A stretch of 30,355 nucleotides of DNA from a virus, in IMG/VR virus record IMGVR_UViG_3300046000_010144, positions 1 through 30,355 of that record; one strand, written 5' to 3'. The translations under genes were made by a program, and so were the position numbers. Below the pieces are notes generated by a model. That model searched no databases. It was given only the letters and a program-made list of their open reading frames with translations, and had not been told where the DNA came from. This document shows, in pieces, positions 970 to 28,361 of this stretch; the stretch's first letter is position 1; each line of letters starts with the position of its first letter.

Positions 970-984
970 AGAACTTTAAGTTCT
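970..984 (-). repeat. Perfect palindrome centred on the stop codon of the SprB-repeat gene
   Basis: AGAACTTAAAGTTCT on the coding strand: two 7-base arms around one central base. The TAA stop (978-976) is exactly in the middle. It can form a small hairpin at the mRNA 3' end. There is no U-tract behind it, so a role as an intrinsic terminator is uncertain; processing or 3'-end protection is possible. Confidence 0.6.
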
Positions 985-8130: not shown

Positions 8131-9317
8131 TAAGAATTATTTTGTGGTGGGTTTATATATTCATACCATTCCAATACCGGTAAACTTTGGACTGACACTC
8201 CAGAAGAACCATTTGACCCATCAGACCCAGATGTACCTGAATTTGTAATGTCATATAAGTAATTTACAAAATCAAAAGTTACTTCACGATAAAAATAATC
8301 GTTATTAACTCTAAATGGATTATTTACATTAATCTCTGTTTGTTTTTTTGTTGTAAAAGTTGTAAACTCTCCTGTTTTACCATTAAAGAATTTAACTCTC
8401 ATATAAAGTTTATCGAGTTTTAAAATGTTAAAATCTTTAAACCAATAGATAAAATATGATTCTTTTAAACCTATATGGTCTAAAATAAAAATTGGACTTA
8501 CAGATTCAATAACGGTGCTAAGTGCGGTAGTATTAACATTAGATACCGTACCATCAGGATTAAGACAAGCACAATCTTCGATATAAGTTAAAGTATATTC
8601 CTGTAATGTGTCTTCAAAGTAATTAGTTCCAGTGGTAGTGTCTATTTCGTAAACCACATTAGCATTTGATGTTACCAAAATATCCTCTCCGTTTTGTAGA
8701 CAAAAAGTCGCCAAAAACCATCCGGTATTTGGGTCAATATTTCCAGGCTCATATTCCTTTGATTCGGTAGTACCACAACAATTTTTAAATCTAATTGCCC
8801 TTATATTCTTACTTAGAATTTGATATTTTTTACACTCATATGTCGTAACAGAATCGGTTATAACAATTTGGTCAGGTAATCCTTGTGTCGTATTTAAAAT
8901 AATAGTTAAATAATTTTTTTGTTTTTTTGCATCTTTTGTATCGTATAGGTCTATCTTGAAAAAAGATTTTTGAACGGATTTCACATTTTTATATAATTCA
9001 TCAGATGTAAATTCATTACCTCCAATATAACTATTTTGCCAAGTAGATGGTAGATTTAATGGAGTTGTTGTATTCTGTGTATAATCCGCAAAGAAAAATT
9101 TATGTGTCACAGAAGTAATATACCCATTACTAGTTGATAATCTTTTTCTTGAAAATCTAGCCATTTCGAAATTTTGTGGTTTACCAACCATTTCTTCAGC
9201 AACAATAGTTTCATATTGGTCTATTAAATCTCCACGATTGAGAAAATCCCAAGTAGTAGGAATTGACACCTGTAAGTGTTTATCTTTGTTATTATTTAAT
9301 AATTTATATTTATTCAC
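8130..9317 (-). CDS. Tail-module protein with collagen-like C-terminal triplets
   Basis: 395 residues from GTG at 9317; a TTG at 9326 would add three residues. GTG is preferred because it gives an 8-base stop/start overlap with the previous gene, like the next overlap upstream (ATGTCTGA), and GTG starts are used elsewhere in the window. There is no ATG candidate. No family is recognised for the main body, which is Lys/Asn/Thr-rich with several Cys (ECKKYQIL, KNCCG, EDCACLN). Near the C-terminus are five Gly-X-Y triplets (GTSGSDGSNGSSGVS) and then a short aromatic tail (LEWYEYINPP). Short collagen-like stretches are common in phage fibres and can drive trimerisation. A structural role is inferred from these and from position. 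Confidence 0.75.
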   Translation of the reverse strand: MNKYKLLNNNKDKHLQVSIPTTWDFLNRGDLIDQYETIVAEEMVGKPQNFEMARFSRKRLSTSNGYITSVTHKFFFADYTQNTTTPLNLPSTWQNSYIGGNEFTSDELYKNVKSVQKSFFKIDLYDTKDAKKQKNYLTIILNTTQGLPDQIVITDSVTTYECKKYQILSKNIRAIRFKNCCGTTESKEYEPGNIDPNTGWFLATFCLQNGEDILVTSNANVVYEIDTTTGTNYFEDTLQEYTLTYIEDCACLNPDGTVSNVNTTALSTVIESVSPIFILDHIGLKESYFIYWFKDFNILKLDKLYMRVKFFNGKTGEFTTFTTKKQTEINVNNPFRVNNDYFYREVTFDFVNYLYDITNSGTSGSDGSNGSSGVSVQSLPVLEWYEYINPPQNNS

Positions 9318-11157
9318 ATCCGTCAATTATTGGGTCGTTTACTGAAGTACTTATACTTAATGAATTTGTACCTTCAGGGATTATTTTAAAAAAGAAATTT
9401 TCATATAAATAATGTCTACCATTCATAAATGTGTAGTCCACACCAATATTTGATTCATCTATAAAACCATAAGGATATATGTCTCTCCACCTAAAATTTT
9501 GGTCAGCTGTCGAGAAATAAGCATAATTTGGGAAATTTTCAATTCTGTAATTTTGAGGGTTTCCTTCGTTACTTACTTCCACATAAGGTGAGTAAACCTT
9601 CATAGTTAACTTATTGTGTGGTTTATAATAATAACCTAATTGATTCGCACGTGGTCCTATTGAAAAGTTATTAGAATTAAATTTTAATTTGTGATAATAA
9701 TCCGATATCACTCTCTCTGTTTGTTCAAAATCATTCCATTCACAAAAATCACCAAGTATTGTATCCCCAACTTGTAAATCTCTATTATAAAAAAACTTTA
9801 GGTTTGAAATTATCGGGTCGCTACCCTCAGAAATATAATTTGTAAAAGGAGTAGTATTTGTCCAAAAATTTGTTGGGATTTGTGTTAATGAAGTTTGGGA
9901 TAACCACCAGTTATTTAACTCAGGACCTAAATTAAATTCCCATCCTTGTTTTAAAGCGGGTTGGTTTGGTTTAATAGGTTTATTAAACCATCCAAAATAT
10001 CCTTTATTAACTACCGTAACAAAAACTTCCGTAAGTGGTCTTCGTTGATTATCAACCATACCTTGTATATCCAAATATTCCTGAAAAGAAACATTATAAG
10101 ATTGACTATCTTCTTTAATTGAAACTCTTCCCTTGTTACCAAAATATGGTGGTTGTAATGATTTAGATTCAAATTTTCTTGTTGTCCTAAGAGCGTTAAA
10201 CTCAAAACCTGAATTGGTAACAACCGCTTGATTATATGGGGTTAAAATTTTGTGTATTCTTACATAATATTTTGATGTTGTTTCACCAGTATTTAGAATA
10301 TTAGTAATTCTCTTAAAGGTACCTTCATTACCATCAAATAAAACTCCACATGAATACCCAACATCATAGACATTAAAAATCTTTAATTCAGAATCTAAAT
10401 AACCATTACCTAAACTATAAACTTCAAATGTTGTTATACCGTCACAAGATGTTCCATTTTGAATGTTTATTACAACACTTTCACCAACATTCAACCCATG
10501 AGACATAGGACAAGTAAATCTAATAATTGGTTTACCATCACCATCAATAAGTTTACTTATCATGAATGGTATTCCATCGCCAGCAACCCATGTAAAAGAA
10601 TGGTCTTGATTAATTTGGTATTGCATTGTTGAGGCAGTTGTAGAACTAAAAGCGTAAGTTAAATGAAAATACCAATTATAAAATGTACTTTGGTCAGGTT
10701 GGAAACTTAAATGTTTGTTTTCACCTGTTGTCCATCCTGAAATGTTATAATCTGTTCTAATAAATTTAAACTCGTCATATTGAGGATAACCTTGCCAAGC
10801 AATTGGTTCGGTACAATTATAATTAATTTGTGATTGTTTATCCGCCAAAGCATTTGAATAATAAAGGTTATTATTAAATGGTGGGTAAGGATATGTTTCG
10901 TTAGAATTTAAAAGTCCTGCGGTACCAAGATATGAATTTTTAAAAATTAAATTAAATTTACATGTAGGAATAAACAACGTAGATTTTTGTCTTTCATTAT
11001 CAAATAACAAAGCCAAATTCAAATCTGTATTTCTTGAGTATTCTTCTAACTCTTTGTCGGTTCTCTCCAAAGATATTGGTAAACCGATGTTCTCATCAGT
11101 CGCCCCCTTAAATCTTAGGGAACCTTTAATATATTTTATGTTACCTAAATCAGACAT
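9310..11157 (-). CDS. Large tail/baseplate structural protein, family unknown
   Basis: 615 residues from ATG at 11157. An in-frame TTG one codon earlier is less likely. The start overlaps the stop of the 1854-residue gene by 8 bases (ATGTCTGA), which suggests translational coupling and a shared complex. The sequence is rich in aromatic residues and Asn, with no membrane segment or signal peptide. A CPMSHGLNVGESVVIN stretch near 235 resembles the HGL..GD.V strand found in phage baseplate and fibre beta-domains. The C-terminal third is Tyr/Phe/Asn-rich (FRWRDIYPYGFIDESN). No enzyme motif was found. Probable virion component. Confidence 0.8.
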   Translation of the reverse strand: MSDLGNIKYIKGSLRFKGATDENIGLPISLERTDKELEEYSRNTDLNLALLFDNERQKSTLFIPTCKFNLIFKNSYLGTAGLLNSNETYPYPPFNNNLYYSNALADKQSQINYNCTEPIAWQGYPQYDEFKFIRTDYNISGWTTGENKHLSFQPDQSTFYNWYFHLTYAFSSTTASTMQYQINQDHSFTWVAGDGIPFMISKLIDGDGKPIIRFTCPMSHGLNVGESVVINIQNGTSCDGITTFEVYSLGNGYLDSELKIFNVYDVGYSCGVLFDGNEGTFKRITNILNTGETTSKYYVRIHKILTPYNQAVVTNSGFEFNALRTTRKFESKSLQPPYFGNKGRVSIKEDSQSYNVSFQEYLDIQGMVDNQRRPLTEVFVTVVNKGYFGWFNKPIKPNQPALKQGWEFNLGPELNNWWLSQTSLTQIPTNFWTNTTPFTNYISEGSDPIISNLKFFYNRDLQVGDTILGDFCEWNDFEQTERVISDYYHKLKFNSNNFSIGPRANQLGYYYKPHNKLTMKVYSPYVEVSNEGNPQNYRIENFPNYAYFSTADQNFRWRDIYPYGFIDESNIGVDYTFMNGRHYLYENFFFKIIPEGTNSLSISTSVNDPIIDGCE

Positions 11158-14100
11158 CAATATCAGTATTTACATATTTCTTTATGAATATATCCATAGC
11201 ACTTGAACCTTTAATCAAACCAAAATAAAAATAGAATGGTGCCCCAACTAAAAATTTATTGAATTGACCTTGAGGTGGATTTACTGTTGGGTTTCCATTA
11301 GAATCAAAGTTTATTTGTGTACCAGGAATTAAACTTGCGTTACCTTGACCATCTTGGAAATAATTAGAACTTGGATTTAATCTATCTAATGTTTGATATT
11401 TGTTAGAAAAGAAAATTGAGTCGTCAGTATCATAATTGTTATTTTGATTTCCAATTATTGTATTCGTTGAATTAAGAGACCATTGATAAAAAGGAATCTT
11501 TTGAGAATTTGTTTTTATATTTGTAAACCAACAATCTAAAATTTGTGAATTAGACGGAAGTGGAACGGTTGCGTTTGGATTCCATATTGTTCTTCTCGGA
11601 GTTAAATAATCTCTGTCTTGTGTAAAACCAGTTAACAATAAACCAAAAACAGGGAACTGATTTGAAGGCCCAAAATAAACTGATTGATTTGTATAAGATT
11701 CAGGTGAAAACTCTTGCATACCAAACTGTGAATTAATTGCAATCATTTGAGAGTAATCACCATCAATATAACCAGGTATTGGTGTCGCTCCGTTATTGTT
11801 CCATCTTTTATTTTGGAATAGAGCTCTAACCGTCGGGTCAAAATCCCCCTCATCTGGGTCATCACTTGCCGGAATTAATGATTGGTTATAATTGGTGTTT
11901 ATTAACCTACTTAAAACAAAAAGATTTAAAATATCTGTAACATTCTGAAAAGAAGTAGATTTAATTTTTGAGACAATATAACCATCATAATCATCATTAT
12001 AAACTATCTCCTGAATAAATGAAACTTTTGGTCCCAAATCCATAATTGTTGTTGGACTTCCTAAAAATTTATTATTACCTGTACTAGTTGAATTACCTTT
12101 TGCATTTTTCTTACCTGTAAATTCACCTCCATTTATATCATTAATATCAAATGAATAAGGACTACTTCTATAGTAAAAATTATTGGTAGGTGAGTGTAAA
12201 TAAATTAAATCAGTACAATAAACACTTGACGGATTATTATCCAAATCAAAAATTCTTTGGTTTTGGAATGGATATGCATATAATGTTCCATTAATATATT
12301 GGTTTGTAAAATTGTGAGACGCAACATTAAAACATAGAGCTAAGTTCAAATTTAGACGTGTATTCCACTCAACAAGATTTCTAACATCTCGACCAATATT
12401 TCTAAGTGGTCTTGAAACAAAATTGTAACAACCATAACCTTGTAAAAAATATTTGTAGTCATCTGATGGGTCCATGTAATCAGAAGCACAATTAGATTTT
12501 ATAAATGGTATACCATCAGAACCAACATCGTAACAAGATAGTGGTACTGCCGAAAAACATTCACTAACACTGTTAAGGATAAAAGTATAACTTGGTGGTA
12601 TAAAAATTTGTGAAGATTCAGTATTACTTTGGGGTGTAGTATCAATAACAATAGGATTTGATACTTGACCTTCTTCGCTAACTTTTAGAATTGCAAATTG
12701 TGAATTTTGATGTAGTAAAAAACTGTTTGGACCTGAGTACTGAGTAGTTGTTGAAGTAGGTAATCTATCCGACCTGAATACTATGTTCAATCGATTACTC
12801 AAACTATGTGTCATACCCGTTGAATACTGAAACGAGAAAAACTTAGGATTTCCAATATATTTGTCAATATTAGAAAGATTAACATTAGCACCTGTTCCAT
12901 CTGTTAAAATTGGATAACTAGAACCTATTGGAGGATTAACAGTTTGTCCCATATCTGCGAAGTTACTTCTCATAAATGACGCTCCATCAACTATTTCATC
13001 ACCCTGATAACCTAACACATTTCGATATTGAGTACATCTATTATCAGCTAGTTGTTCATATAAAACAAGTGCTCCCTCTGATGTTATCTGAGTATTAGAA
13101 TTTATAAATACTTTCGTCATTGAGTTAGCAATATATGACGTAGGATTTGCATTACAATTGTTATTGGATGATACAGATAATACTTGACCATCAGAAACAC
13201 TTAAACTCTCAACAATACTCGTACCTACTATGTTAGTTGAATCATTCAAATTAGGCCAAAAAATATTTCCGTCAATATTAATACCATTCCAATTTAAAGT
13301 TCCATCAGTATTGAATGTATCAGAATCCACGGAAGAATAGTAAGAAGGAAGATTAGTTGTTCCATTATCTATGAAATCATTTTGAGAATATGTGAAAGTA
13401 TAACTTGGTCTAAATAAGTTGGACGATGTATTATCTAATACATCATCATGTTTATCAGTTTTTATTGTACCCGTTATTGGATAATTCATTTTAAACTCAC
13501 CCTGAATAACATAAGTTGGGTCATCAAAAAATTGACTGTAATTACCAAAACCAAATAGTTTAGATAAATCTACTTTTTGGGGTATTCTTGGTGAGTGAGC
13601 ATCAACTCCTCTAAATAAGAATAACAATTTATAGTCATCATAGTCAGTAATATAATTTGTTAAAGTATTATACCCTTGGTCAATAACACCTATGTTTGGT
13701 ATGATTTTAACAAATTGAACATTTTTAATACTTTCTTGTCCTGGTGGTGTAAATCTTTGTAGATATCTAACACCAAAACTCATTATGTTTGAAAATGGGT
13801 TTGCCAAACTTTCATACTGACCAATAGTCATTCCTGTTATTACTTGGAAGTACTCAACATCCGCAGCAAAACTTGTAGTAGTATTAAAACTTGTTTGAGA
13901 TGATAGAATAGGTACGTTATAATATTGTGTTAGATTAGTTACAGATAATGGAGAGTTAGGGTCAGCGTATGTAACTTCTAATGCTGAAGGGAAAATAGTT
14001 GTTCCTGTTGTTACTGTTCTATTCAAATCACCACTTAAAGTTACGTCTTGGAAAGCAATTAAATCACCTGAGTTATATTCAGGTGTTGTTTTATCCAACA

Positions 14101-16714
14101 CTAAAACCATAATATTATCAAAGTGATAATCGGTTAGTGAAGTATTAATTTCAGGAAACCAGTTAACTTTTACTTGATTCCATCCGTCTACTGACCCATT
14201 TCCAAAATTTGGGACGTTATTAAAATATTTGGATTTTGTATTAAATAAATTATATAATTCGGAAGGTGGAAGTGCGGTCGTTGTGTAGTATTGATATAGC
14301 GGATAAACTTCATAAGTTGTTGTATTAACACTTGTTAAAGGATTTATAGGGAATCTTCTTGTTAATATTCCATCAACAGCACCTGTCATTAATTGAGAAA
14401 GATTACTAATTGAATTTTGAGGTATTCCATTATATGTTGGTGTTGATGTTGAATTTATCAAATAAGACGTTTGAGCGTCACCCTGAACTTGTAATGACAC
14501 GGATATTGTGCTATCAATTGCATTATCTATTCCTGTTGAAGAATTACATTTACATTTTTCACACCCATCATCAGTATATAATACTAAAGGTAAAGTAAAG
14601 TTTTTTAATTTTTTTCCAGCGTCTCTGAAATCATCATAAAGAGTTGCTAAATAAATTCCTAAAGCAATTGCCACACCCGCAGCTACAGCGTATCCTATAC
14701 CCGCAAAAATTTGACCAACATTAACTACGACAACAGGTCCAGTTAGTCCTACACCATATCCTGTAACAGAATTAAAAGCATTAATTGATTGGAGTACAAA
14801 TAGAACTGCAAGATAAGCTATAAGTCCCTCTATTATACTAAATAATATAGGGAAACCTGTAATCATTAACCATGAAAAAACATGTAACACAAATAAAATA
14901 ACAATTGCTAAAAATTTGAATATGAGTAAAAAAAACGATACAACTAAATAAACAAAATCAACTCTGTAAAAAACGTCATTGGTTGGAAAAGTATTAAAAT
15001 CACCTTGACATGTTGAGTCTGTAATTTTTTTAATACCTAATGTATTCCAAGCAAATTTTGTACCTTGGTATCTATCAATCAATTGAGTTGTCGTATAAAC
15101 TTTATTATACGACATATCATAAAATGTGTCTTCACAATTAATAGCTTCTTCAGGAACCGCATAATCATTCCAATCAAAACTAAAAGCATAAGAACCTTCT
15201 AACATAAATTTAGCGGCAGGAATCTTTTCTAATTCAAATACAAATGGAGCACCTATATCATCTCTAAAAAAGGTAAACGTGAATATACCAGGTGTTCTAA
15301 AAATTTGGCTAGTATATGGGTTACCATCAGGGTCAGTAATTGATAAGTCAATAACATTTTGAACCCTAACTATTCTAAAAAACTCATTTTCACCTACAGG
15401 TAATTGTGCAGTAATCTGTCCTACTCCACTACCTGCATTATCAGGAATTAATATCGTAGTAGTGTTTAAATTTAGTGGGTCAGCATCAATACTTGCCCAA
15501 CCTCTTTCTTTAATATTTGGAACTAAAAAATAAGCTCTTTTAGTTGGTTCTGATAATTCAGGAGATTGTTGCCACTTTATTTTAAATCTATACTTACCTC
15601 TTGTTGGTACCCCTATGTCAGGATTCCCACTTAACTTTCTTTCACCATTTTCATCGGTATAAACGTAATCCAAGTTCATCGGTACCTCTAATACCCATAC
15701 ACCATTCTCATCAATTACTTTCCCATCATTATCTAAGACCGCCCTTTCTAAAATAGGTCTTCCATTCTCATCATTATATATTGTTTGACGTAATGCAATA
15801 ATTTCGCCAGGACCCTTTGTTAAAGAACACATTTCTCCAGCAGTTCTTTTAACAGAACAAGCACTTGTCTGTCCTAAAAATGAAAGTTTTTTACCTACTC
15901 TTTGTGTATCATCATTAGAAATAAGTGACCCCATAAAAACTGCTGTAGGTTCTAATTTAATACCATTTTCCGATGTTAAATCAAAGTCAACACGAGCAAT
16001 ATTATAGTTGCAAATTTCAAACTCACCAAACAAAGGTTCTATTTGAACTGTTTTTTGTGATGTAACAATTTGAGGAAGTTCACCGTAATTTGTTGAGAAA
16101 TTAAATCTAGGTCCATCAACAGATTGTTCTGTTGCAATACCCATTCTTATCAAATCTTGAGGTGTTAATGAAAACTCACCGATGTCAGACAAGTCAACTT
16201 GCATAAATAATGTTTGTTGTCCCGTAGGAACTCCAAAAATCATGTAGTCACCCGACTCATTTGTTTTTACAGTAAACTTATAATATTTCTCATAAACCTG
16301 AATTAATAGATTGTCAGTTAAAACATCTTCCCTTTCAGGAAAAGTTCCAACAGGAACGTGACCTGAATGTGATTGTGTATATGGTAATAAGTTATATCTA
16401 TACCCATCATCATTAATATCAACAAAACTTGTATAAGGATATAATGTTGAGATATAATCATTTTGAGTGTCAATATCTTCTATTGGTACAAATATTGAAA
16501 CTCTTGCATTAGGGATACCAAAACCATTATTACAAAATATTCTACCGCAAACTACCCCGTAGTTTGCACAACTCCTAATATAAACATCATCAGGACGAAT
16601 TGCTAAAGACAAAATTTCTAACGTATCAAAATTTTGTTCTAAAACAATAGGTATCTTAACAGGAATATTTTGATTGATACCTAACTGTGTACGTATTCTA
16701 TATGACTTCGGCAT
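11150..16714 (-). CDS. Giant tail/baseplate protein with internal membrane-like segments
   Basis: 1854 residues, the largest gene in the window, directly downstream of gp6. Residues about 53-175 contain a split carboxypeptidase-regulatory/Ig-like pattern (VVCGRIFCNNGFGIPNARVS and later GDYMIFGVPTGQQT). Residues about 586-640 and 659-692 are strongly hydrophobic and read as three or four membrane helices (VVSFFLLIFKFLAIVILFVL, then AGIGYAVAAGVAIALGIYLA). They are followed by a basic stretch and a Cys cluster GCEKCKC (717-723). The remaining 1100 residues are Asn/Thr/Ser-rich and beta-like. By position it could take the place of T4 gp7 or another wedge part, but no clear family match is seen and membrane segments are unusual in such proteins. 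Its start is preceded by a palindrome and a TATTTAT motif. Confidence 0.85.
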   Translation of the reverse strand: MPKSYRIRTQLGINQNIPVKIPIVLEQNFDTLEILSLAIRPDDVYIRSCANYGVVCGRIFCNNGFGIPNARVSIFVPIEDIDTQNDYISTLYPYTSFVDINDDGYRYNLLPYTQSHSGHVPVGTFPEREDVLTDNLLIQVYEKYYKFTVKTNESGDYMIFGVPTGQQTLFMQVDLSDIGEFSLTPQDLIRMGIATEQSVDGPRFNFSTNYGELPQIVTSQKTVQIEPLFGEFEICNYNIARVDFDLTSENGIKLEPTAVFMGSLISNDDTQRVGKKLSFLGQTSACSVKRTAGEMCSLTKGPGEIIALRQTIYNDENGRPILERAVLDNDGKVIDENGVWVLEVPMNLDYVYTDENGERKLSGNPDIGVPTRGKYRFKIKWQQSPELSEPTKRAYFLVPNIKERGWASIDADPLNLNTTTILIPDNAGSGVGQITAQLPVGENEFFRIVRVQNVIDLSITDPDGNPYTSQIFRTPGIFTFTFFRDDIGAPFVFELEKIPAAKFMLEGSYAFSFDWNDYAVPEEAINCEDTFYDMSYNKVYTTTQLIDRYQGTKFAWNTLGIKKITDSTCQGDFNTFPTNDVFYRVDFVYLVVSFFLLIFKFLAIVILFVLHVFSWLMITGFPILFSIIEGLIAYLAVLFVLQSINAFNSVTGYGVGLTGPVVVVNVGQIFAGIGYAVAAGVAIALGIYLATLYDDFRDAGKKLKNFTLPLVLYTDDGCEKCKCNSSTGIDNAIDSTISVSLQVQGDAQTSYLINSTSTPTYNGIPQNSISNLSQLMTGAVDGILTRRFPINPLTSVNTTTYEVYPLYQYYTTTALPPSELYNLFNTKSKYFNNVPNFGNGSVDGWNQVKVNWFPEINTSLTDYHFDNIMVLVLDKTTPEYNSGDLIAFQDVTLSGDLNRTVTTGTTIFPSALEVTYADPNSPLSVTNLTQYYNVPILSSQTSFNTTTSFAADVEYFQVITGMTIGQYESLANPFSNIMSFGVRYLQRFTPPGQESIKNVQFVKIIPNIGVIDQGYNTLTNYITDYDDYKLLFLFRGVDAHSPRIPQKVDLSKLFGFGNYSQFFDDPTYVIQGEFKMNYPITGTIKTDKHDDVLDNTSSNLFRPSYTFTYSQNDFIDNGTTNLPSYYSSVDSDTFNTDGTLNWNGINIDGNIFWPNLNDSTNIVGTSIVESLSVSDGQVLSVSSNNNCNANPTSYIANSMTKVFINSNTQITSEGALVLYEQLADNRCTQYRNVLGYQGDEIVDGASFMRSNFADMGQTVNPPIGSSYPILTDGTGANVNLSNIDKYIGNPKFFSFQYSTGMTHSLSNRLNIVFRSDRLPTSTTTQYSGPNSFLLHQNSQFAILKVSEEGQVSNPIVIDTTPQSNTESSQIFIPPSYTFILNSVSECFSAVPLSCYDVGSDGIPFIKSNCASDYMDPSDDYKYFLQGYGCYNFVSRPLRNIGRDVRNLVEWNTRLNLNLALCFNVASHNFTNQYINGTLYAYPFQNQRIFDLDNNPSSVYCTDLIYLHSPTNNFYYRSSPYSFDINDINGGEFTGKKNAKGNSTSTGNNKFLGSPTTIMDLGPKVSFIQEIVYNDDYDGYIVSKIKSTSFQNVTDILNLFVLSRLINTNYNQSLIPASDDPDEGDFDPTVRALFQNKRWNNNGATPIPGYIDGDYSQMIAINSQFGMQEFSPESYTNQSVYFGPSNQFPVFGLLLTGFTQDRDYLTPRRTIWNPNATVPLPSNSQILDCWFTNIKTNSQKIPFYQWSLNSTNTIIGNQNNNYDTDDSIFFSNKYQTLDRLNPSSNYFQDGQGNASLIPGTQINFDSNGNPTVNPPQGQFNKFLVGAPFYFYFGLIKGSSAMDIFIKKYVNTDIDV
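14639..14959 (-). other. Coding segment for hydrophobic membrane-like region
   Basis: Encodes residues 586-692 of the 1854-residue protein. The runs 586-613, 614-640 and 659-692 are almost free of charges, apart from K600, H611 and E629, and rich in Val, Leu, Ile, Phe, Ala and Gly. This is enough for three or four membrane-spanning helices. Confidence 0.75.
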
Positions 16715-16774: not shown

Positions 16775-18613
16775 TTAAGAGAAGTTAACCGTACTTAGAT
16801 TTAAAGTACTTACGGTAATATCTTTGTTTGGAAATCTAATTTGATAAATTTGTGATGGTGTTGCAAATAATGTATCGTTAATCAATCCAATTTGTTTTGT
16901 AGTATTATTAATATACGCCTGTGAGGTTTGATTTGACGAATACTGACCACCGACTAAATTGAAAACATTTATCTCGCTAATAGATAAAACACCATTTAAT
17001 GATTGTATCAATCTTTTCAATTCTGAGATATACACATTTTCACCCATCTCTCGATTTAAAGGACTAAAGAAGGTATCAACAGTATTAACAATATTTGTAA
17101 TCACGGTTCCTTGGTTTTGTGTCGAATCTAAAACCACACTAATTTCAAGTTTTAAATCAATAACCTCAGCACTTTCAACTGTAATATAATCATTAATCAT
17201 TCTATAATTAGATAAGTAATTTGCAACACTTGTTTTTAATGAACTTGAGATATTTGATTGTAATTTACCCTCATCATTATACGATAACATTTTAACTTTA
17301 ATCTTATTATCTTCTTCAGTTATCGCAACTTTAGCAGGTGCCCCGTATTGAGAAGGCATTTTTCTTATCACTGAATTATAATCATCAATAGTAACCGCTC
17401 TGTTTTGAGACGCAAAATTAAATCCAATTAAATTTCTAACTTCTTCAATTGTCGGTACGTTCGCTCCACCTATTGCCGCAGTCACATTAGTACAAGATAT
17501 ACTATTAATAACTGAACTATTAATTGTTTGATTTGGACCATTAACCGCAAAATTTATAGTTCCTATTTGATTAATAACATTTGTTCCTAAATTAGTACCT
17601 AATCCACCGCCAATTCTATATTGAACAAATAAAGTTGTATTTGGAATAATCGTTGAACCTAATGATAGGTTGTTTGAATATTTTGATAAATCTAAAGGTG
17701 TACCATTTCTTGCAAACTCTCTTAAAAGTTCATCAGTCGATTGACTTCCCCCACCAAACGTCATTTTTAAAAATCCTTGTGGTGTATATTCTGTTATAAA
17801 TTTATTACTTGTTTGAATATACTTACCAACTTTTTTACCCGCAGTACTTTGTGGACCTGCTGGGTCTTCAACAAATATTCTGTCTTGTGCCAAAGCGTCT
17901 ACCTCATACCATCTGTTATTTAATCCTAAAAATTCTTCAACAGATGGAACATTATTATAACTTAACCCATCTTTTAATAAAACACTTGTAACACCTAAAA
18001 CATTTTTTTCAGGTAAAAATAATTCTAAAAATGGTCTTGATTCAGAAGTAGTTATTGTCTTTCTAAAAACTTTAGTAATACCATTAACTACAGGTTCTCT
18101 TTTAGTAATTCTATAGTTTATTATAACATTGTTAGCATTAAAAATTGGAGTTTTAGTTCTATTTCTAACACCTTCAGCGTTTGTTTCACTTGCAAAGTTA
18201 ACATCACCAACAAGTTCAAAAACTTGACCAGCACCATATACTTGAGACCCTCTTCTTAAAATTCCACAATAATCAATATTTTCTTGAGCTCCATTAGCCG
18301 GAACCACAATTGAGAAATCTACTAAAGCAACAGATGGTCTTTGACCCGGAATTTTAAGTCCATATGTTCTTGCAATATTATATAATGATGAACTCTGTTG
18401 AGCATATTGTAATACAGTTTCTTGTATACTTCTGTCAATATGATAATGTAAATTATCAGTAACCGCAGCATTAAGGTCTAAAAATACCGAAAAAACCGCA
18501 GCGTCATTAACATTTTGAACTAACTCAGGGTAATACGCTTTGACAAAATTTACTAATTCCTGTCTTATGTTTTGGAAATCCCTTGTTGTGTATGATATTT
18601 GTTTGTTTGCCAT
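16775..18613 (-). CDS. 6: Baseplate wedge protein, gp6 / baseplate J-like
   Basis: 612 residues, about T4 gp6 size (660). Typical features are the N-terminal YTTRDFQNIRQELVNFVKAY, a region at 40-60 with DLNAAVTDNLHYHIDRSIQE, and the baseplate-J signature at 388-425 (ASQNRAVTIDDYNSVIRKMP). These are followed by YLSNYRMINDYITVESAEVI (467-486) and the C-terminal wedge part MGENVYISELKRLIQSLNGV (523-542). In contractile tails this protein forms the iris-like ring of wedge dimers around the hub and transmits the contraction signal. The ATG is separated by one base from the gp25 stop, so the two are co-translated. The pairing gp25 then gp6 is the same as P2 gpW then gpJ. Confidence 0.94.
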   Translation of the reverse strand: MANKQISYTTRDFQNIRQELVNFVKAYYPELVQNVNDAAVFSVFLDLNAAVTDNLHYHIDRSIQETVLQYAQQSSSLYNIARTYGLKIPGQRPSVALVDFSIVVPANGAQENIDYCGILRRGSQVYGAGQVFELVGDVNFASETNAEGVRNRTKTPIFNANNVIINYRITKREPVVNGITKVFRKTITTSESRPFLELFLPEKNVLGVTSVLLKDGLSYNNVPSVEEFLGLNNRWYEVDALAQDRIFVEDPAGPQSTAGKKVGKYIQTSNKFITEYTPQGFLKMTFGGGSQSTDELLREFARNGTPLDLSKYSNNLSLGSTIIPNTTLFVQYRIGGGLGTNLGTNVINQIGTINFAVNGPNQTINSSVINSISCTNVTAAIGGANVPTIEEVRNLIGFNFASQNRAVTIDDYNSVIRKMPSQYGAPAKVAITEEDNKIKVKMLSYNDEGKLQSNISSSLKTSVANYLSNYRMINDYITVESAEVIDLKLEISVVLDSTQNQGTVITNIVNTVDTFFSPLNREMGENVYISELKRLIQSLNGVLSISEINVFNLVGGQYSSNQTSQAYINNTTKQIGLINDTLFATPSQIYQIRFPNKDITVSTLNLSTVNFS

Positions 18614-18614
18614 C

Positions 18615-19076
18615 TTATATATTAATTATTACAAAACTACTTGAGTTAAAAACATCATTTGTTACTTGATAGTCAATTCTTACTTTAGCAGTATATTCTT
18701 TAGTTGCTAATCCTGGTATTGTTAATTGTGTATTTACAACATTTCCCTCTGTTGTAACATATGGTCCAGCCTCTTCAGATGAAAGAGCTGTAACTTTTAT
18801 TGATGTTATTAACAAATTAGGTATATATATCTCAACAGATTCTTTAATCTCTGATTCAATATCATTGAATGTTGGTCCATCTAATGGTTCAAAAATATAT
18901 TCATACAATCTTGTACCAAAATCAGGTAAAAAATATCTACTACCTTTTCGAGTTAATAATAAGTGTATTAAATTATTTTTAATCTCATCAGTAGGAGTTT
19001 CAGATAAATTAAGATATTTTCCAGTTAAGGAATCACCAAAAGGAAAATTAATACCGTATGTTACACCATTACCCAT
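18615..19076 (-). CDS. 25: Baseplate wedge protein, gp25 / gpW-like
   Basis: 153 residues, close to T4 gp25 (132). The gpW/gp25 domain covers residues 27-98: DEIKNNLIHLLLTRKGSRYF, then LPDFGTRLYEYIFEPLD, then a helix ending in YIPNLLITSIKV. The RKG.R...P.FG..L..Y.FEP motif is diagnostic of this lysozyme-like-fold wedge protein, which joins the sheath initiator to gp6. It is the first gene after the terminator behind nrdA, so it opens the tail transcription unit. A hairpin ends directly at its start codon. Confidence 0.95.
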   Translation of the reverse strand: MGNGVTYGINFPFGDSLTGKYLNLSETPTDEIKNNLIHLLLTRKGSRYFLPDFGTRLYEYIFEPLDGPTFNDIESEIKESVEIYIPNLLITSIKVTALSSEEAGPYVTTEGNVVNTQLTIPGLATKEYTAKVRIDYQVTNDVFNSSSFVIINI

Positions 19077-19139: not shown

Positions 19140-21572
19140 TTAAGAAGAACATCCAAAACAATCAAATTCACTATTTTCAGGTTTGTCTGGTAAATTCATA
19201 TAACTGTAATCTACCTTTGGTGGTTCAGGAGTTGGTTTTGGTTTATTAACTTTTGAAGTGTCAATTGCCAAATGTTTTGCTCCTGTTGAGATTGCCTTTG
19301 TTCTAACATAGTAACAAAGTGTTTTCAATCCTTTTTCCCATCCATAAAAATGTGATGATGAAATCTTGGATAATGTTGGATTACCCATATAAATGTTCAT
19401 TGATTGTGATTGGTCAATAAATGGTGCTCTATCAGCTGCCATCTCAATCAAGGATTTTTGTGAAATCTCCCAAATTGTTTTATACTTCTCAATCAGTCTT
19501 TCAATTCTATTAACTTTAAAGTTATATCTTTTATCTTCAGGGTCCAAATAATTCAAGAAATTAATTCCTTGTACCGACCCTTCATTCATAATGATTTCGT
19601 TTTTCAAGTCTTCAGACCAAATACCAATTTTTTCAAAGTCACTAATCAAATACTTGTTCACAATCATAATTTCACCACCAACAACACGTCTGTTAAAGAT
19701 TGCCGAATGTGCCGGTTCAGTCATTTCATACGAACCTGTAATCTTCGCTGAAGATGCCACAGGCATTTGAGCTGTAAATAATGAGTTACAAACACCGTAT
19801 TTACTAACATTCTGTTTCAAAATTCCCCAAGGCCATTTTCCTGATAACTCATCTTCTTTCAACCCCCACATATCAAATTGGAATACTCCTTGTGACATCG
19901 GTGACCCTTCAAAGTGAGTATATGGTTCGTATTTACCGTCCATACACAATCTATTACTTTCAGTGATTGCCGCAAAATAAATTGTTTCAAAGATTTCTTT
20001 ATTTAACTTACGAGCTTCATCAGATGTAAAGATGTAATCCATCAAATAGAATACATCCGCCAATCCTTGAGTTCCAATTGCAATTGCTCTTTGTTCCAAT
20101 CCACCTTTACGTCCTTTTTCAGTTGAGTAATTGTTAATGTTAACAACCTTGTTTAATGCTCTAACAACCTTACGTGTCTCTTCATATAACCCCTGAAAAT
20201 CAAACTCTTTATCTTTAACGTAGTTCTTTAACACCATAGATGATAAAGTACAGATAGCGGTAGTTTCCTCATCAGTATACTGATAAATCTCATTACAAAG
20301 ATTTGATTGTTTAATAACACCGATGTTCTGATGGTTTGTCTTTTTGTTAGCACTATCTTTAGAACATAGGTACGGAACACCTGTTTCAATTTGTGATTCA
20401 ATAATCTTATTCCAAATCTCTTGAGCTTTAACTTTTTTACCAAGACCTTTATTTACCGCCAACTGATAATTCTCTTCATATTCAGTACCGTAACTTTCTT
20501 GTAATGGTTTGATACCTGCTTTTATAATATCGTTTGGACAGAACAAATACCAATCATCATTATCTTTAACCGCTTTCATAAAGTTATCGGGAATCCAAAG
20601 TGCAGTAAACAAATCACGAGCTCTCAATTCTTCAGCACCTGTGTTCTTTTTAATCTCCAATAAATCCATAATATCTTTATGCCAAGGTTCCAAGTAGATT
20701 GCCGCAGAACCCGGTCTACGTCCTTGTTGATTAAAGAAACGAAGTGATTCGTTAACAATCTTCAAATACTTTAAAAGTCCACCAGCGTGTCCACCTGAAG
20801 ATGAAATACGACTCTCCTTACTACGAATGTTCGACATTGATAGTCCAATACCCGCAGCGTCAGATGAATATGTAGAGATATCTCTCATGGTGTTTAACAA
20901 ACCTTCTCTTGAGTCTGAGTCGTTGTAATGTAATACACAAGAAGCAAGTTGTGGAACTTTAGTACCAGCGTTAATCATGATAGGTGTTGCCGGAGATATT
21001 TTTTGATTTGACAAAGATTGATAATATTCAATAGCCTCTTCAAATGTATCGGTCACCCAAAGAGCAACTCTCATATACATATGTTGTGGACGTTCAACTA
21101 CTTTACCTTCTGATAATTTCAAAAGATACATTTCAGCAAGTGACCTCCAAGCAAAGTAATCAAAGTTATAATCGTTATCGTGATTGATAACCTCATCAAT
21201 TTTAGAAGGACCGTATTTCTCAATAGTCTCCATTAACCTGTCATTAATGATACCTTCACTATGTAACAAATGCATTGTGTTTGAGAAACTTGGGTCAGTT
21301 TCTTTGTGATAAGATGAAATAGCAACTGACGAAGCCAATCTTGAGTAATCGTGATGACTACCTGTAAATGCCGCAGCAATTTCATAGATTAACTTATCTA
21401 ATTCTTTTGTTGTAATAATACCCACAGTTGGTACTGAAGTAATAACCTTAATAAAGATTTCATCGGAGTTGACACTCAACCCCTTTGAAGCTCTTTTAAT
21501 ACGGTTATAAATTTTTTGTGGATTAAATGACGCATCATCTCCACCTCTCTTTTTAATTTTAAGTGACATCAT
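19140..21572 (-). CDS. nrdA: Ribonucleoside-diphosphate reductase, large subunit (class I)
   Basis: 810 residues. It reduces ribonucleotides to deoxyribonucleotides with NrdB. It carries an N-terminal ATP-cone-like region (about 4-90, KIKKRGGDDASFNPQKIYNR), so dATP feedback is possible. The catalytic set is complete: C212 (QLASCVL) and C441 (TTAICTLSS) form the redox pair, N424, C426 and E428 lie in SNLCNEI with the thiyl-radical Cys, Y754-Y755 (LCYYVRT) form the radical path, and the C-terminal pair C805/C808 (DCFGCSS) takes electrons from thioredoxin or glutaredoxin. MPVASSAKITG (603-613) is the phosphate-binding region. Two in-frame ATGs open the gene; the first is taken. It lies 20 bases after nrdB and is the last gene of its operon. 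No thioredoxin or glutaredoxin gene is in the window. Confidence 0.98.
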   Translation of the reverse strand: MMSLKIKKRGGDDASFNPQKIYNRIKRASKGLSVNSDEIFIKVITSVPTVGIITTKELDKLIYEIAAAFTGSHHDYSRLASSVAISSYHKETDPSFSNTMHLLHSEGIINDRLMETIEKYGPSKIDEVINHDNDYNFDYFAWRSLAEMYLLKLSEGKVVERPQHMYMRVALWVTDTFEEAIEYYQSLSNQKISPATPIMINAGTKVPQLASCVLHYNDSDSREGLLNTMRDISTYSSDAAGIGLSMSNIRSKESRISSSGGHAGGLLKYLKIVNESLRFFNQQGRRPGSAAIYLEPWHKDIMDLLEIKKNTGAEELRARDLFTALWIPDNFMKAVKDNDDWYLFCPNDIIKAGIKPLQESYGTEYEENYQLAVNKGLGKKVKAQEIWNKIIESQIETGVPYLCSKDSANKKTNHQNIGVIKQSNLCNEIYQYTDEETTAICTLSSMVLKNYVKDKEFDFQGLYEETRKVVRALNKVVNINNYSTEKGRKGGLEQRAIAIGTQGLADVFYLMDYIFTSDEARKLNKEIFETIYFAAITESNRLCMDGKYEPYTHFEGSPMSQGVFQFDMWGLKEDELSGKWPWGILKQNVSKYGVCNSLFTAQMPVASSAKITGSYEMTEPAHSAIFNRRVVGGEIMIVNKYLISDFEKIGIWSEDLKNEIIMNEGSVQGINFLNYLDPEDKRYNFKVNRIERLIEKYKTIWEISQKSLIEMAADRAPFIDQSQSMNIYMGNPTLSKISSSHFYGWEKGLKTLCYYVRTKAISTGAKHLAIDTSKVNKPKPTPEPPKVDYSYMNLPDKPENSEFDCFGCSS

Positions 21573-21592
21573 AGTTCTATATAAGTAATAAA

Positions 21593-22552
21593 TTAGAAAT
21601 CGTCTGTAAAGGACAAAGTTTCATTCAATTTAGCTTTTTGGTATTCAACAGTTCTTGACTCAAAGAAGTTACCCTTTGTTTCAACTGCGATTTGTTCCAT
21701 AAATTTGAACGGTTGTTCAACGTTGAATTGTTTTTTACAACCAAACTTTGCCAATAATCCATCAACAACAAACTCAAGATATTGTTTCATTAAGTTTTGG
21801 TTCATACCAATCAAAGAAACTGGTAAAGATTCTGTGATGAATTCTTTCTCAATCTCAAGAGCTGAAAGTAGAATTTCTTTAATTCTCTTTTCACTCGGTT
21901 TGTTTTCAATGTGATTGTTTAATAAATGAATTGCAAAGTCACAGTGTAGGTTTTCATCTTTGAAAATCAAAGAGTTAGCGTTACATAGTCCTTGCATAAT
22001 TCCTCTAGACTTTAACCAAAAGATAGAACAGAATGAACCTGAAAAAAAGATACCCTCAACCGCTGCGAAAGCAACTAATCTTTCTTGAAACGATGCGTTC
22101 TCAATCCAATCCAAAGCCCATTTAGCCTTCTTTTGAACTGCAGGTAGGTTGTCTAATGCCGTAAAACATTTGTTCTTTTCATCCTCATTTGATACGTAAG
22201 TATCAATAAGAAGTGAGTACATTAGACTATGAATGTTTTCCATTGCCAACTGAATACCATAAAAGAATTTGGCTTCAGGATATTGTACTTCTCTGTAGAA
22301 ATTCTCAGCCAAGTTTTCATTAACGATACCATCTGACGCAGCGAAAAACGATAAAATATTTTTTACAAAATACTGTTCATTTTCTGATAAGTTTTCCCAG
22401 TCACGTAGGTCACCGCTTAAATCTATTTCTTCTGCCGTCCAAAACGCAGCCTGATGCATCTTATAATATTCCCAAATATCATTGTATTTGATTGGGAATA
22501 TTACAAAACGATTTGGATTTTCTACTAAAATTTTTTCCATTTTTTCTTCCAT
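21593..22552 (-). CDS. nrdB: Ribonucleoside-diphosphate reductase, small subunit (class I)
   Basis: 319 residues, a usual size for class I R2. It houses the diiron centre and tyrosyl radical that start catalysis in NrdA. Visible ligands are D74 (ASDGIVNEN), E105 and H108 (MENIHSLMY) with radical Tyr Y112, then E166 (VEGIFFSG), E200 and H203 (KDENLHCDF). The D-E-H-Y spacing (31, 3, 4) agrees with known R2 proteins. The [10 protein letters not shown] motif at 37-46 is of the type found in eukaryotic and many Bacteroidota and phage enzymes. The C-terminus ends in SFTDDF, the tail that binds NrdA. An internal ATG at 22540 would also give a plausible N-terminus. It follows the helicase gene by 13 bases. 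Confidence 0.98.
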
Positions 22553-22565
22553 ATTGTTTTAATAA

Positions 22566-23936
22566 TTATACTGATTGTTGTTTTCTTTTTTCCATAATTT
22601 CTTTAATTCTGCTTCTATTTCTTTCTTCCTTCTGTTCCTCAAGTCCCAAGAATGTTGTAGTACTTTCAGTGTCAATTTCTAACATTTCGTTATTAAACTT
22701 ACAGTTTTCAAATACCACCCCGTCTTTACCAATTCTTGACTTTGTAATTGCAATAGTAGCAAGATTTAATTCTTTTTGTTGTAGTGATTTAGCCACAGTG
22801 ATGATAACGTGTCCCACTTGAGCTTTCTTAATAGACCCACCCATTTGGTCAGTTGTTACAACATCAGATGATATTGAACTTCTGTTACCTTGTGTTGCCG
22901 TCCAACCAGCGATATCTAATTCATTACACATCGCTTCAAATGCTCTCATCACCGAACCTTCAGATTTCCATTCATCGTCCATCATCTTTTCAGGTGTAAC
23001 ACAATCAATATAATCTAAAATAACCACATCAATCCTATTACCATCAGCAATCATCTTTCTAATCTGATTTTTAATCTGATTCATGGTCATTGTATCAGAT
23101 GGTAATTTTTTAAGGATTAACTTGTTCTTCATCGTATTCTTGATTTCATCAAGTTTCTTAATAACGATTTCTCTATTTTCACCTAATGAATCAGGAGAAA
23201 TTCCTGTCCAACATGTGAAATGTTTTCTTTGAATAACTTTTGGGTTATCCTCAAAGAAAATTTGTAAAACATTAAATCCTAAATTAAAAGCGTGATTAGC
23301 AATCTTTGTCGTTAACGTTGATTTACCAACACCTGTGGGGGCTAATATAACGCCAATTTCTCCTTTTGCCAAACCACCCTTCAGAAGATTATCAATACCC
23401 GGTATTCCCATAGGGATTGGATGTCTATAATCATCCGCTAAAACTTCATCTAAATTTTCAAATACTTCCCCTGTTCCTCTATCTACGTTTCCAACCTGTA
23501 AAGCTTCTCTAACCATCTCTTCCAAAGTGTCATAGTTTTCAAACTCACCATGGTCAATAATTTTTTTAGCCTTATCCATAACCTTTTGAAGTTCCTGTTG
23601 TTTACAAAACTTCAAAGCTTTCTCTTGGACGAAATGAACACCATCATCTGTTACATTCTGTATATCAGAAATAGTGTCAAGAGTTATCTTTAATAATAAC
23701 TCCTGACTAATTTCACTCTTAGCTTTTTGTTGAATTGTCTCAAAACTTGGGCTGTGGTCAAACTTCATGTAATACTCCTTCACCATTTGAAGAAATAATC
23801 TAAAGTATTTGTTTTCAAAGTAGTTAGGTTCCATCACCTCAATAATTGAGTGTGCGAAGTCTTTATCAACTATCGTTTGGTTAAGGAGTTGTAGTTGAAA
23901 AGTTTCCCCTAAATAATCAAAATTTTTGTCAGCCAT
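22566..23936 (-). CDS. 41: Replicative DNA helicase, gp41 / DnaB-like
   Basis: 456 residues, close to T4 gp41 (475). This ring helicase unwinds the fork 5'-3' on the lagging strand. The N-terminal helical domain covers about 1-150. The RecA-like domain starts near 165 with IPMGIPGIDNLLKGGLAKGE. It contains Walker A APTGVGKST (200-207), the conserved FFED (227-230), Walker B VVILDYID (304-311) and the sensor-like TATQGNRS (346-353), then GGSIKKAQVGHVIIT (366-380). A charged C-terminal tail (EEQKEERNRSRIKEIMEKRK) may contact primase or loader. No primase (gp61-like) gene is in the window. The start is preceded by an A-rich leader AAAAACAAACATAAT and a TATTTAT motif. Confidence 0.94.
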   Translation of the reverse strand: MADKNFDYLGETFQLQLLNQTIVDKDFAHSIIEVMEPNYFENKYFRLFLQMVKEYYMKFDHSPSFETIQQKAKSEISQELLLKITLDTISDIQNVTDDGVHFVQEKALKFCKQQELQKVMDKAKKIIDHGEFENYDTLEEMVREALQVGNVDRGTGEVFENLDEVLADDYRHPIPMGIPGIDNLLKGGLAKGEIGVILAPTGVGKSTLTTKIANHAFNLGFNVLQIFFEDNPKVIQRKHFTCWTGISPDSLGENREIVIKKLDEIKNTMKNKLILKKLPSDTMTMNQIKNQIRKMIADGNRIDVVILDYIDCVTPEKMMDDEWKSEGSVMRAFEAMCNELDIAGWTATQGNRSSISSDVVTTDQMGGSIKKAQVGHVIITVAKSLQQKELNLATIAITKSRIGKDGVVFENCKFNNEMLEIDTESTTTFLGLEEQKEERNRSRIKEIMEKRKQQSV

Positions 23937-23954
23937 ATTATGTTTGTTTTTAGA

Positions 23955-23961
23955 ATAAATA
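23955..23961 (-). promoter_or_regulatory. TATTTAT motif before the helicase gene
   Basis: TATTTAT on the coding strand, directly after the TGA stop of the 150-residue gene and 18 nt before the helicase ATG. This is the only one of the six motifs with no hairpin next to it. Confidence 0.3.
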
Positions 23962-24414
23962 TCAACGAGCTAGCTGATAACCCATGTATTCGTGTGTTAA
24001 ATTTCTTGCTGACAACACGTCAGTAAGGCCAAAAAGGATACCTTTTAGGAACGGGCGTATGTCTACGGTGTATCTTACCTTCGGTGGGTAAAGTTTAGCA
24101 TCAAACGTATAATGACACATTGTCGTATCTCCATTTTTGATGTAGATGTTAAACGACTCAGGTCCGTCAGTGAATGATGTGTTTAAAACCTCAGGGTCTT
24201 CACTAATCTGATATTGATTGTCTAACATGTAGTTTACAGTTTTCATTTTGAAATTTTGTTTCAAATCTGAAATAAAACCATCCATAATGTCAATTAACTC
24301 AGCCGAGTTATGAGCCTTTGGGTTATACCCTTTAACGTTAAAAAAACGTTGTACGATAAAGTTGTTGTTTACCGTCATCAAGAATTCCAATTTGGTAATG
24401 TCTTGTTCTTTCAT
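23962..24414 (-). CDS. Unknown 150-residue protein in the replication operon
   Basis: 150 residues, ATG at 24414, 8 bases after the nuclease gene and 25 before the helicase gene. No family is recognised. The N-terminal half looks helical (LEFLMTVNNNFIVQRFFNVK; then a helix around 39-60), the middle is beta-like (DGPESFNIYIKNGDTTMCHY), and a C-terminal helix region ends in SARNLTHEYMGYQLAR. It has one Cys, no membrane segment and no enzyme motif. Its fixed place between a FEN-type nuclease and the helicase makes a replication accessory role possible, for example helicase loading in place of T4 gp59. That is inference from position only. Confidence 0.8.
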   Translation of the reverse strand: MKEQDITKLEFLMTVNNNFIVQRFFNVKGYNPKAHNSAELIDIMDGFISDLKQNFKMKTVNYMLDNQYQISEDPEVLNTSFTDGPESFNIYIKNGDTTMCHYTFDAKLYPPKVRYTVDIRPFLKGILFGLTDVLSARNLTHEYMGYQLAR

Positions 24415-24422
24415 AATTTAAT

Positions 24423-25427
24423 TTATTTTTTGTTTGTTTTTGTTTTTTCTTTTCTTGTTAACTTCATAAATGGTTGAATGAAGTATGTCCACGCATCATC
24501 CCCTTTTGGTAGGTACTTAAACAACCCGTCTTCAACCATATACTTAATTAAGTTCTTATAACTTCTACCTTCAATATCTAATTTTTCAGTAACAACTAAT
24601 CGTATCTCTTCTTTGTCTTCATCCCTTAATAGTGGATTCGACAAATCAACAATCTGTTCATTAACTTGGAAAAATTCTTGTTCAAAAATACCTGATTTGG
24701 TTTTACCTGTTAAAAGATTTTTTAAAGTCTGATTGTCTTTTTGTTCTTTTAATAAGTCTTCAGCCTTTGTTAAAATATCGTTATAAGAAACTTCTTTTTC
24801 AAGTATTTCAGGGAAAAACTTAACTAAAGTTTTTTCACCCAAAAGATAGATACCTTCAATGTTATCTGATTTATCACCAGTTAATATCTTTAAAGTTTTT
24901 ACGTTGTAGTGTGGAAACTCAAAATCATCAAATTTAATCTTATCCCCGTGTTTAAACGTAGCTTTGACTGATGGTGAGTATATTGACACGTTTTCGGAAA
25001 TAAGTTGTGTTAAGTCTCTGTCTGATGAAAAAATAAGTTTGTCTTCATTTTCAGATACTTGACAATAATAAGCAATTAAATCATCAGCTTCTCTTCCACT
25101 AATCTCTAATTGTCTAATATAGACTTCTTCCAAATATTGTTTGATACGATTTTTTTGTTTTAGGTAGGACATAAAGATTGCTTCCTCCATAACCAATCGT
25201 CGGTTTTGTTTGTATTTGGGGTAAAGAATTCCACGTAAACTCGTAGAATCTTCACCATCCCAAAATACTACTACCTTGTCAAAGTTTTGTTCATTAATGA
25301 ATTTACGTAAAGTATTCATGAAATGATACAACGCCCCAATGTGTTCTCCATTGTGGAAGTAGTCCTTCACACCATGAAACCCAATTTTCATTAGGTTGTT
25401 TCCGTCAACAAGTAGTGTTTTTTTCAC
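24423..25427 (-). CDS. 5'-3' exonuclease / flap nuclease (FEN family, T4 RNase H-like)
   Basis: 334 residues, near T4 RNase H (305). It is expected to remove RNA primers and 5' flaps on the lagging strand. All acidic metal ligands of the FEN fold are present: D8 (LLVDGNNL), D57 (VVFWDGED), E113/D115/D116 (GREADDLIAYY), D136/D138 (FSSDRDLTQLI) and D185/D188 (LTGDKSDNI). YPKYKQNRR (69-77) is the typical helical-arch entry, and GIYLLGEKT (192-200) is the helix-turn-helix DNA contact. The C-terminus is very basic (LTRKEKTKTNKK). The start is GTG at 25427, 8 bases after the uvsX stop; no ATG gives an intact N-terminal Asp motif. It is a stand-alone nuclease, not fused to a polymerase. Confidence 0.94.
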   Translation of the reverse strand: MKKTLLVDGNNLMKIGFHGVKDYFHNGEHIGALYHFMNTLRKFINEQNFDKVVVFWDGEDSTSLRGILYPKYKQNRRLVMEEAIFMSYLKQKNRIKQYLEEVYIRQLEISGREADDLIAYYCQVSENEDKLIFSSDRDLTQLISENVSIYSPSVKATFKHGDKIKFDDFEFPHYNVKTLKILTGDKSDNIEGIYLLGEKTLVKFFPEILEKEVSYNDILTKAEDLLKEQKDNQTLKNLLTGKTKSGIFEQEFFQVNEQIVDLSNPLLRDEDKEEIRLVVTEKLDIEGRSYKNLIKYMVEDGLFKYLPKGDDAWTYFIQPFMKLTRKEKTKTNKK

Positions 25428-25435
25428 GAACTAAA

Positions 25436-26428: not shown

Positions 26429-26468
26429 AAATGTCTATGATTTAAATTGTTTGTTGTTTAAAAATAAC

Positions 26469-26507
26469 AAAGGGTAGGCACTTTGTCTATACTTGTACCT
26501 ACCCTTT
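26469..26507 (-). terminator. Intrinsic terminator after the gp32 gene
   Basis: Transcribed strand: AAAGGGTAGGTAC, 13-base loop, GTGCCTACCCTTT, then GTTATTTTTAAA. The stem has 13 pairs including one U-G. On the opposite strand this pair would be a C-A mismatch, so the fold favours the leftward transcript. It starts 7 nt after the gp32 stop. It should end most gp32 transcripts and leave some readthrough into uvsX. Confidence 0.88.
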
Positions 26508-26513
26508 TATAAA

Positions 26514-27356: not shown

Positions 27357-27385
27357 TTTGTTTGTATAATTTATTAGTTAATATT

Positions 27386-27417
27386 CAAGTATAAGTGTGT
27401 CAGCCGTGATAGTCAAA
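27386..27417 (-). promoter_or_regulatory. Bacteroidota-type promoter for the gp32 gene
   Basis: Coding strand: TTTG (27417-27414), 20-nt spacer, TATACTTG (27393-27386). The Bacteroidota consensus is TTTG, 19-21 nt, TAnnTTTG; the -7 box differs by one base. The expected transcript start is near 27379, giving a leader of about 22 nt. It implies early transcription by the host RNA polymerase. Confidence 0.65.
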
Positions 27418-27439
27418 TTTGAAATTTTAGAATTTCAAA
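27418..27439 (-). repeat. Perfect inverted repeat centred on the stop codon of the coiled-coil gene
   Basis: Arms TTTGAAATT and AATTTCAAA (9 bases each) around a CTAA loop that contains the TAA stop (27429-27427). It abuts the TTTG box of the gp32 promoter. It may end or process the upstream transcript; the stem is AT-rich and the U-tract is weak. Confidence 0.6.
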
Positions 27440-28330: not shown

Positions 28331-28361
28331 TTTATTATAAATATATCTTTATTATAAAGAT
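28331..28361 (-). repeat. Stop-centred palindrome plus 11-bp direct repeat at the hub/74-residue gene junction
   Basis: ATCTTTATAATAAAGAT on the coding strand: 8-base arms (28345-28352 / 28354-28361) around the middle base of the hub stop TAA. The word TTTATAATAAA occurs twice (28348-28358 and 28331-28341), the second copy within the leader of the next gene. Possible RNA processing or regulatory site. Confidence 0.6.
28337..28343 (-). promoter_or_regulatory. TATTTAT motif before the 74-residue gene
   Basis: TATTTAT on the coding strand, 14 nt before the ATG at 28322, inside the second copy of the direct repeat. The opposite strand reads TATAAATA at 28336-28343. Confidence 0.3.

Follow-up and report, generated by a model that had tools for sequence, protein, structure and literature searches.

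We describe a giant protein of 1854 residues, encoded directly after the gp6-like baseplate gene of an apparently T4-like phage, in which a nearly charge-free helical module interrupts otherwise soluble, beta-rich sequence. We propose that this protein (hereafter the giant) is an accessory component of the baseplate cluster and that its module, residues 586–692, enters the host membrane, a task placed here instead of in the tape measure. We put the probability of this reading at about 0.48.

The giant gene and its locus

The window, meaning the whole 30,355-nucleotide stretch that we analysed, is by its gene content a fragment of a T4-like phage. It encodes gp25, gp6, a UvsX-like recombinase, a gp32-like protein, a DnaB-like helicase and ribonucleotide reductase (RNR). 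A 136-kb contig (G001) holds counterparts in the same order for 18 of 19 window genes compared, all from 976 to 30355, and a second contig (L001) encodes the giant itself at 99.6% identity. The tail genes of the window are as follows.

3122–6076, minus strand: gp7-position protein, 984 aa, with a KGT motif; 54% identity to G1_75835
9310–11160, minus strand: 616-aa protein immediately downstream of the giant, overlapping its end by 11 nt; 40% identity to G1_71141
11150–16714, minus strand: giant baseplate-locus protein, 1854 aa; open reading frame with ATG start
16775–18613, minus strand: gp6-like baseplate wedge (Baseplate J); PF04865 8e-09, phrog_219 9e-15
18615–19076, minus strand: gp25-like baseplate wedge; PF04965 1e-10
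28352–30355, minus strand: hub-like tail protein, C-terminal part, cut by the contig end; 37% identity to G1_45757 residues 1798–2377

This arrangement recurs wherever the giant is found. The gp6 gene lies beside it in 96 of 96 loci, within 300 nt in 91, and gp25 is present at all 70 loci with enough upstream DNA. Downstream, a homologue of the 616-aa gene (598–616 aa) occurs in 52/52 loci with enough DNA on that side, and a gene of 984–1014 aa in 33/33 with enough flanking DNA. Judged by this gene order, the giant gene belongs to the T4-like baseplate wedge cluster (gp25–gp6). That the giant is itself a wedge or fibre protein is unproven.

Other parts of the window bear on the phage at large. 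The hub-like tail protein reaches 2–2.5 thousand residues at full size, and its family matches phrog_52 (tail, 2e-4). Between its gene and gp25, at 19140–28095, lie genes for RNR, the DnaB-like helicase, a 5'-3' exonuclease and the UvsX-like and gp32-like proteins; of the 31 relatives whose upstream DNA is long enough, 28 have the RNR large subunit. At 976–3120 a protein with SprB repeats scores above the PF13573 cut-off. The SprB repeat is named for a Flavobacterium gliding protein, and its occurrence hints at a Bacteroidota host. Among relatives, one very large tail-block protein (L118:6153-11201, 1682 aa; its G1 homologue is L111:328-5442, 1704 aa) contains a weak OmpA-like stretch at residues 904–979 (PF00691, E 0.0055, below the cut-off) that might bind peptidoglycan.

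A hydrophobic module and its conservation

The original prediction placed a near charge-free stretch at residues 586–692 of the giant, which correspond exactly to window positions 14639–14959 on the minus strand, and charge count, hydrophobicity and shuffling agree on it. The stretch contains three D, E, K or R residues (D586, K600 and E629) against about 17.5 expected from composition. Kyte-Doolittle hydrophobicity in 19-residue windows (KD19) peaks at 2.98 (591–609), 2.56 (623–641) and 2.15 (669–687). Mean hydrophobicity over the 107 residues is 1.82, compared with a maximum of 1.29 among 20,000 residue shuffles, and a 107-residue window with at most two charges, present in the giant, was found in one of 20,000. 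The third peak is unremarkable alone: in a protein so poor in charge, 19% of shuffles reach it. Among the other 18 window genes the best KD19 is at most 1.38 in 17 and 1.77 in the RNR small subunit, so that the stretch is the sole one of its kind among the window's tail genes. Likewise, in two relatives with contigs of 127–136 kb, the giant is the only tail-block gene with KD19 peaks of at least 1.8. The parts of the giant are these.

15497–16714, minus strand: N-terminal beta-rich domain, residues 1–406; 60% mean pairwise identity (45 representatives), beta-rich in the AlphaFold2 (AF2) model
15134–15136, minus strand: invariant Cys527, in a CEDTFY motif (57 aligned homologues)
15008–15010, minus strand: invariant Cys569 (57 aligned homologues)
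14975–14989, minus strand: FPxND motif, residues 576–580, directly before the hydrophobic stretch (45 representatives)
14639–14959, minus strand: hydrophobic helical module, residues 586–692, defined by KD19 peaks, conservation in 192/192 homologues and AF2 helices
14864–14956, minus strand: core hydrophobic segment 1, residues 587–617, from the alignment; H611 kept in 40/45 representatives
14792–14860, minus strand: hydrophobic segment 2, residues 619–641; KD19 2.56, 18% mean pairwise identity, variable among homologues
14639–14710, minus strand: hydrophobic segment 3, residues 669–692; KD19 2.15, absent or replaced in many aligned homologues
14546–14563, minus strand: CxxCxC motif, residues 718–723, directly after the hydrophobic stretch; three Cys invariant in 57 homologues
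11153–14545, minus strand: C-terminal region, residues 724–1854, beta-rich, with a conserved GAPFYFYFGL end; AF2 mean pLDDT 64

The giant belongs to a large family of uncultivated viruses. It had no match in Pfam, PHROG, PDB or INPHARED, three diverse homologues had none in INPHARED, and no cultured-phage relative was detected; among bacterial genomes, 74 candidate stretches yielded no relative. A Foldseek search of a viral library returned one clear family member, the uncharacterized A0A8S5LA66 of Myoviridae sp. ctPuP5, which joins the family by both fold (1e-41) and sequence (41% identity over 410 columns); it is an unstudied record, and the library holds just part of the protein. By contrast, three IMG/VR scans gave at least 600 rows each. 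Homologues for analysis came from four such scans, which together gave well over 200 loci, with the best 80 loci per scan examined. One homologue (L064:2236-10776) is enlarged to 2846 aa.

Hydrophobicity at this position is constant among the homologues examined. The first two scan rounds gave 96 homologues 900 aa or longer, all of which carry one to four segments in the same place. Among the best 80 loci per scan, the KD19 peak in the region is at least 2.01 in 192 of 192 distinct homologues that cover it (median 2.69), while the remainder of these proteins has a median peak of 1.30. The original prediction had named homologues without hydrophobicity here as evidence against it, and these 192 include none. 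CxxCxC follows the stretch in 190 of the 192.

The sequence of the module, unlike its hydrophobicity, drifts. Across 45 representatives, mean pairwise identity is 60% over residues 1–406, the most conserved part of the giant, 56% over 508–585 and 49% over 706–725, but falls to 29% over 587–620, 18% over 621–641 and 20% over 642–692. Segment 1 is the only one recognisable in every aligned representative, and the estimated number of membrane passes varies (one in 6, two in 22, three in 11 and four in 6). Individual positions are strictly kept: P577, D580, C718, C721 and C723 in 45/45, N579 in 44/45 and H611 in 40/45. Hydrophobicity retained under such drift fits lipid contact, and the invariant FPxND and CxxCxC flanks suggest a defined module. 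Cysteines 527, 569, 718, 721 and 723, invariant in 57 aligned sequences, flank the module on both sides, possibly as a single metal or disulfide site; in that case the two flanks would be brought together.

A stretch of this kind might also have no direct membrane role and serve as a handle for a chaperone or as a flexible hydrophobic spacer. There is a precedent in lactococcal phage TP901-1, where hydrophobic regions of the tape measure have been suggested to serve chaperone recruitment, not membrane entry (PMC5099701). A handle would not need position and flanks to be so strictly conserved in a family this diverse, and none of the neighbouring genes, several of unknown kind, was recognisable as encoding a chaperone. 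We regard this explanation as the least probable of those considered.

Structure prediction supports helices in the module and leaves their setting ambiguous. An AF2 model of residues 1–790, built with 57 sequences (mean pLDDT 75), is beta-rich through much of 1–540 and places two long helices at 587–648 and 666–704, joined by a beta hairpin (651–664); block pLDDT over the helices is mostly 74–91 and is low past residue 709. The model of 700–1854 is weaker (mean pLDDT 64) and also beta-rich. The soluble, beta-rich flanks that had been read from the sequence thus reappear in both models, with lower confidence for 724–1854, while the three or four helices expected earlier become two long ones in the AF2 model and three hydrophobic segments by sequence. 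Foldseek against the PDB gave no match at E <1e-3 for either half; the N-terminal part, examined as a possible carboxypeptidase-regulatory-like or Ig-like domain, had only weak matches, to Ig-like pilins and PA1324 (E at least 1e-3), and no Pfam match. The helices are long enough for a bilayer and their hydrophobicity is conserved, as expected of the membrane type, with insertion itself a prediction. At 62 residues, helix 587–648 is much longer than a bilayer, which counts against the membrane reading, although AF2 models no membrane.

Those same long, confident helices and their hairpin are what a packed bundle might show. In such an arrangement the helices would never contact lipid and would instead be buried against one another or against adjacent wedges, holding the baseplate together. 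We consider this rather unlikely, and the comparison with T4 gp7 below is what bears on it most.

Tape measures and gp7

Hydrophobic stretches of this sort had been linked to tape measures, and the comparison upholds that link for two outgroups. The window stops short of its own tape-measure gene, and the comparison was therefore made in relatives with longer contigs. In these contigs the sheath and tube genes are followed by a gp26-like gene (PF12322), then by a gene for a helical protein of 546–676 aa, and lastly by genes for two very large tail proteins. The product of the helical gene matches the 1348-aa post-tube protein of Microcystis phage Mel-JY01 (BLASTP 2e-11 for G1 and 6e-9 for G3; hhalign 94.8%), which in turn matches the annotated tape measure of Flavobacterium phage immuto (6e-16). 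By these similarities the helical gene (614 aa in G1) is a tape-measure candidate. In 11 giant-carrying relatives its KD19 peak is at most 1.28, that is, without a hydrophobic segment, whereas the tape measure of Mel-JY01 has seven KD19 segments of at least 1.5 (best 2.37) and that of immuto eight (best 2.24). Conversely, neither tblastn over the phage collection nor a profile search of their tail regions found the giant in Mel-JY01 or immuto.

Other assignments were considered and set aside. The giant is not a plausible tape measure, being beta-rich in phages where another gene has the features of one. The two largest tail-block proteins (1704 and 2478 aa in G1) were also rejected for this role, as it is the 614-aa helical gene that matches the Mel-JY01 protein; neither has a strong hydrophobic segment. 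A search with the Mel-JY01 query found no tape measure in LR756508, which therefore adds nothing to the contrast. The contrast is between a single lineage and two outgroups, and one evolutionary event may account for it. Against it also stands T4, whose tape measure gp29 has only one hydrophobic segment (2.2).

The T4 baseplate offers a closer parallel. Wedge proteins had been thought free of such stretches; this is not strictly true, for T4 gp7 has one, with a KD19 of 2.07, and its GenBank record describes the C-terminus as a "predicted integral membrane domain". No other T4 wedge or hub protein tested exceeds 1.66. Like the giant, gp7 is large, is encoded directly after gp6 and has a predicted membrane stretch; unlike the giant's, its stretch is single and conserved in sequence, and the two proteins share no detectable homology.

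We found no grounds for equating the giant with gp7. In hhalign comparisons its probability is below 1% against T4 gp7 and likewise below 1% against gp7-position proteins of Mel-JY01, immuto and LR756508, and the 370–430-aa proteins that follow gp6 in those three phages gave no signal as homologues. A better gp7 candidate, on profile similarity, is the 984-aa gene. The family of its counterpart G1_75835 matches gp7-region proteins of Mel-JY01 (91.5%), immuto (87.1%) and LR756508 (55%), and these matches are carried by the KGT motif, which resembles FYSTKGI of T4 gp7; a direct comparison of the family with T4 gp7 was not significant.

The gp7 stretch speaks to the buried bundle in both directions. 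As a wedge of a soluble particle, with baseplate structures solved, gp7 shows that a conserved hydrophobic stretch can occur in such a protein. Across T4 and three relatives, however, that stretch (residues 880–905, L140:5061-8159) is almost unchanged (FVHPVGFGFI-LLT-FIN) with overall identity down to 33%, as a packed core expects, whereas the giant's segments are among its least conserved parts and vary in number. Indirect as it is, this difference is our main reason for preferring lipid contact over a packed core.

Proposed role and known systems

We infer a sequence of events in which the giant becomes part of the virion, its conserved beta-rich N-terminal domain, likely a docking domain, fixing it in the baseplate or tail tip. 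Attachment or contraction would expose the helices. These would then enter the host envelope, where they would either assist in opening or lining the DNA route or fasten the tail tip to the membrane. Given a short tape-measure candidate without a hydrophobic segment and a giant that has several, the membrane-breaching job may have moved from one to the other. In its full form, with the baseplate itself building a pore or seal for DNA, this relocation seems doubtful to us.

Topology and position complicate the proposed insertion. Positive charge is enriched past the last segment, somewhat ahead of the first, and poor inside, and a positive-inside reading weakly favours both ends of the giant on the same side of the membrane. 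Single-stretch members contradict this: their soluble parts would lie on opposite sides, unlike those of two-stretch members, which makes the topology inconsistent. Furthermore, a wedge-side protein would sit nearer the outer than the inner membrane.

The module could alternatively act before release, anchoring the giant to the infected cell's inner membrane while baseplates assemble there. Internal hydrophobic segments without a signal peptide are normally inserted during synthesis, as this scenario would have it. The virion would then need to be freed from the membrane, for which no release factor was seen, and the tape-measure contrast would become a coincidence. We judge such a tether distinctly improbable, and continue to favour insertion into the host membrane at infection.

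It is poorly understood how phages with contractile tails get through the host membrane once the tail has contracted; suspicion usually falls on the tape measure, for which the evidence is mixed. A lineage with hydrophobic segments in a tail-tip protein and not in the tape measure would make length measurement separable from membrane crossing, so that each could be tested alone. As the family is large and without functional annotation, its placement in the baseplate cluster is also useful for annotation.

Several known systems resemble the giant in part. Hydrophobic tape measures (TP901-1, Mel-JY01, immuto) also cluster hydrophobic segments in an otherwise soluble protein of the tail cluster, but the giant is beta-rich and adjoins gp6, and the phages that carry it have a separate tape-measure candidate. 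T7 gp14 and gp16, both of the virion, employ predicted transmembrane helices at infection, those of gp14 being assigned to the outer membrane (PMC8954989); unlike the giant, they are released from the head interior of a short-tailed phage. In two further cases, Cis13 of a thylakoid-anchored contractile injection system and CisA of Streptomyces, a contractile machine is tied to a membrane by a transmembrane segment (PMC8894136, PMC12237407). Cis13 differs from the giant in being fibre-like with a C-terminal helix, and CisA in being a separate bitopic protein. Both act on membranes of the producing cell, whereas the giant would act on those of the host under attack.
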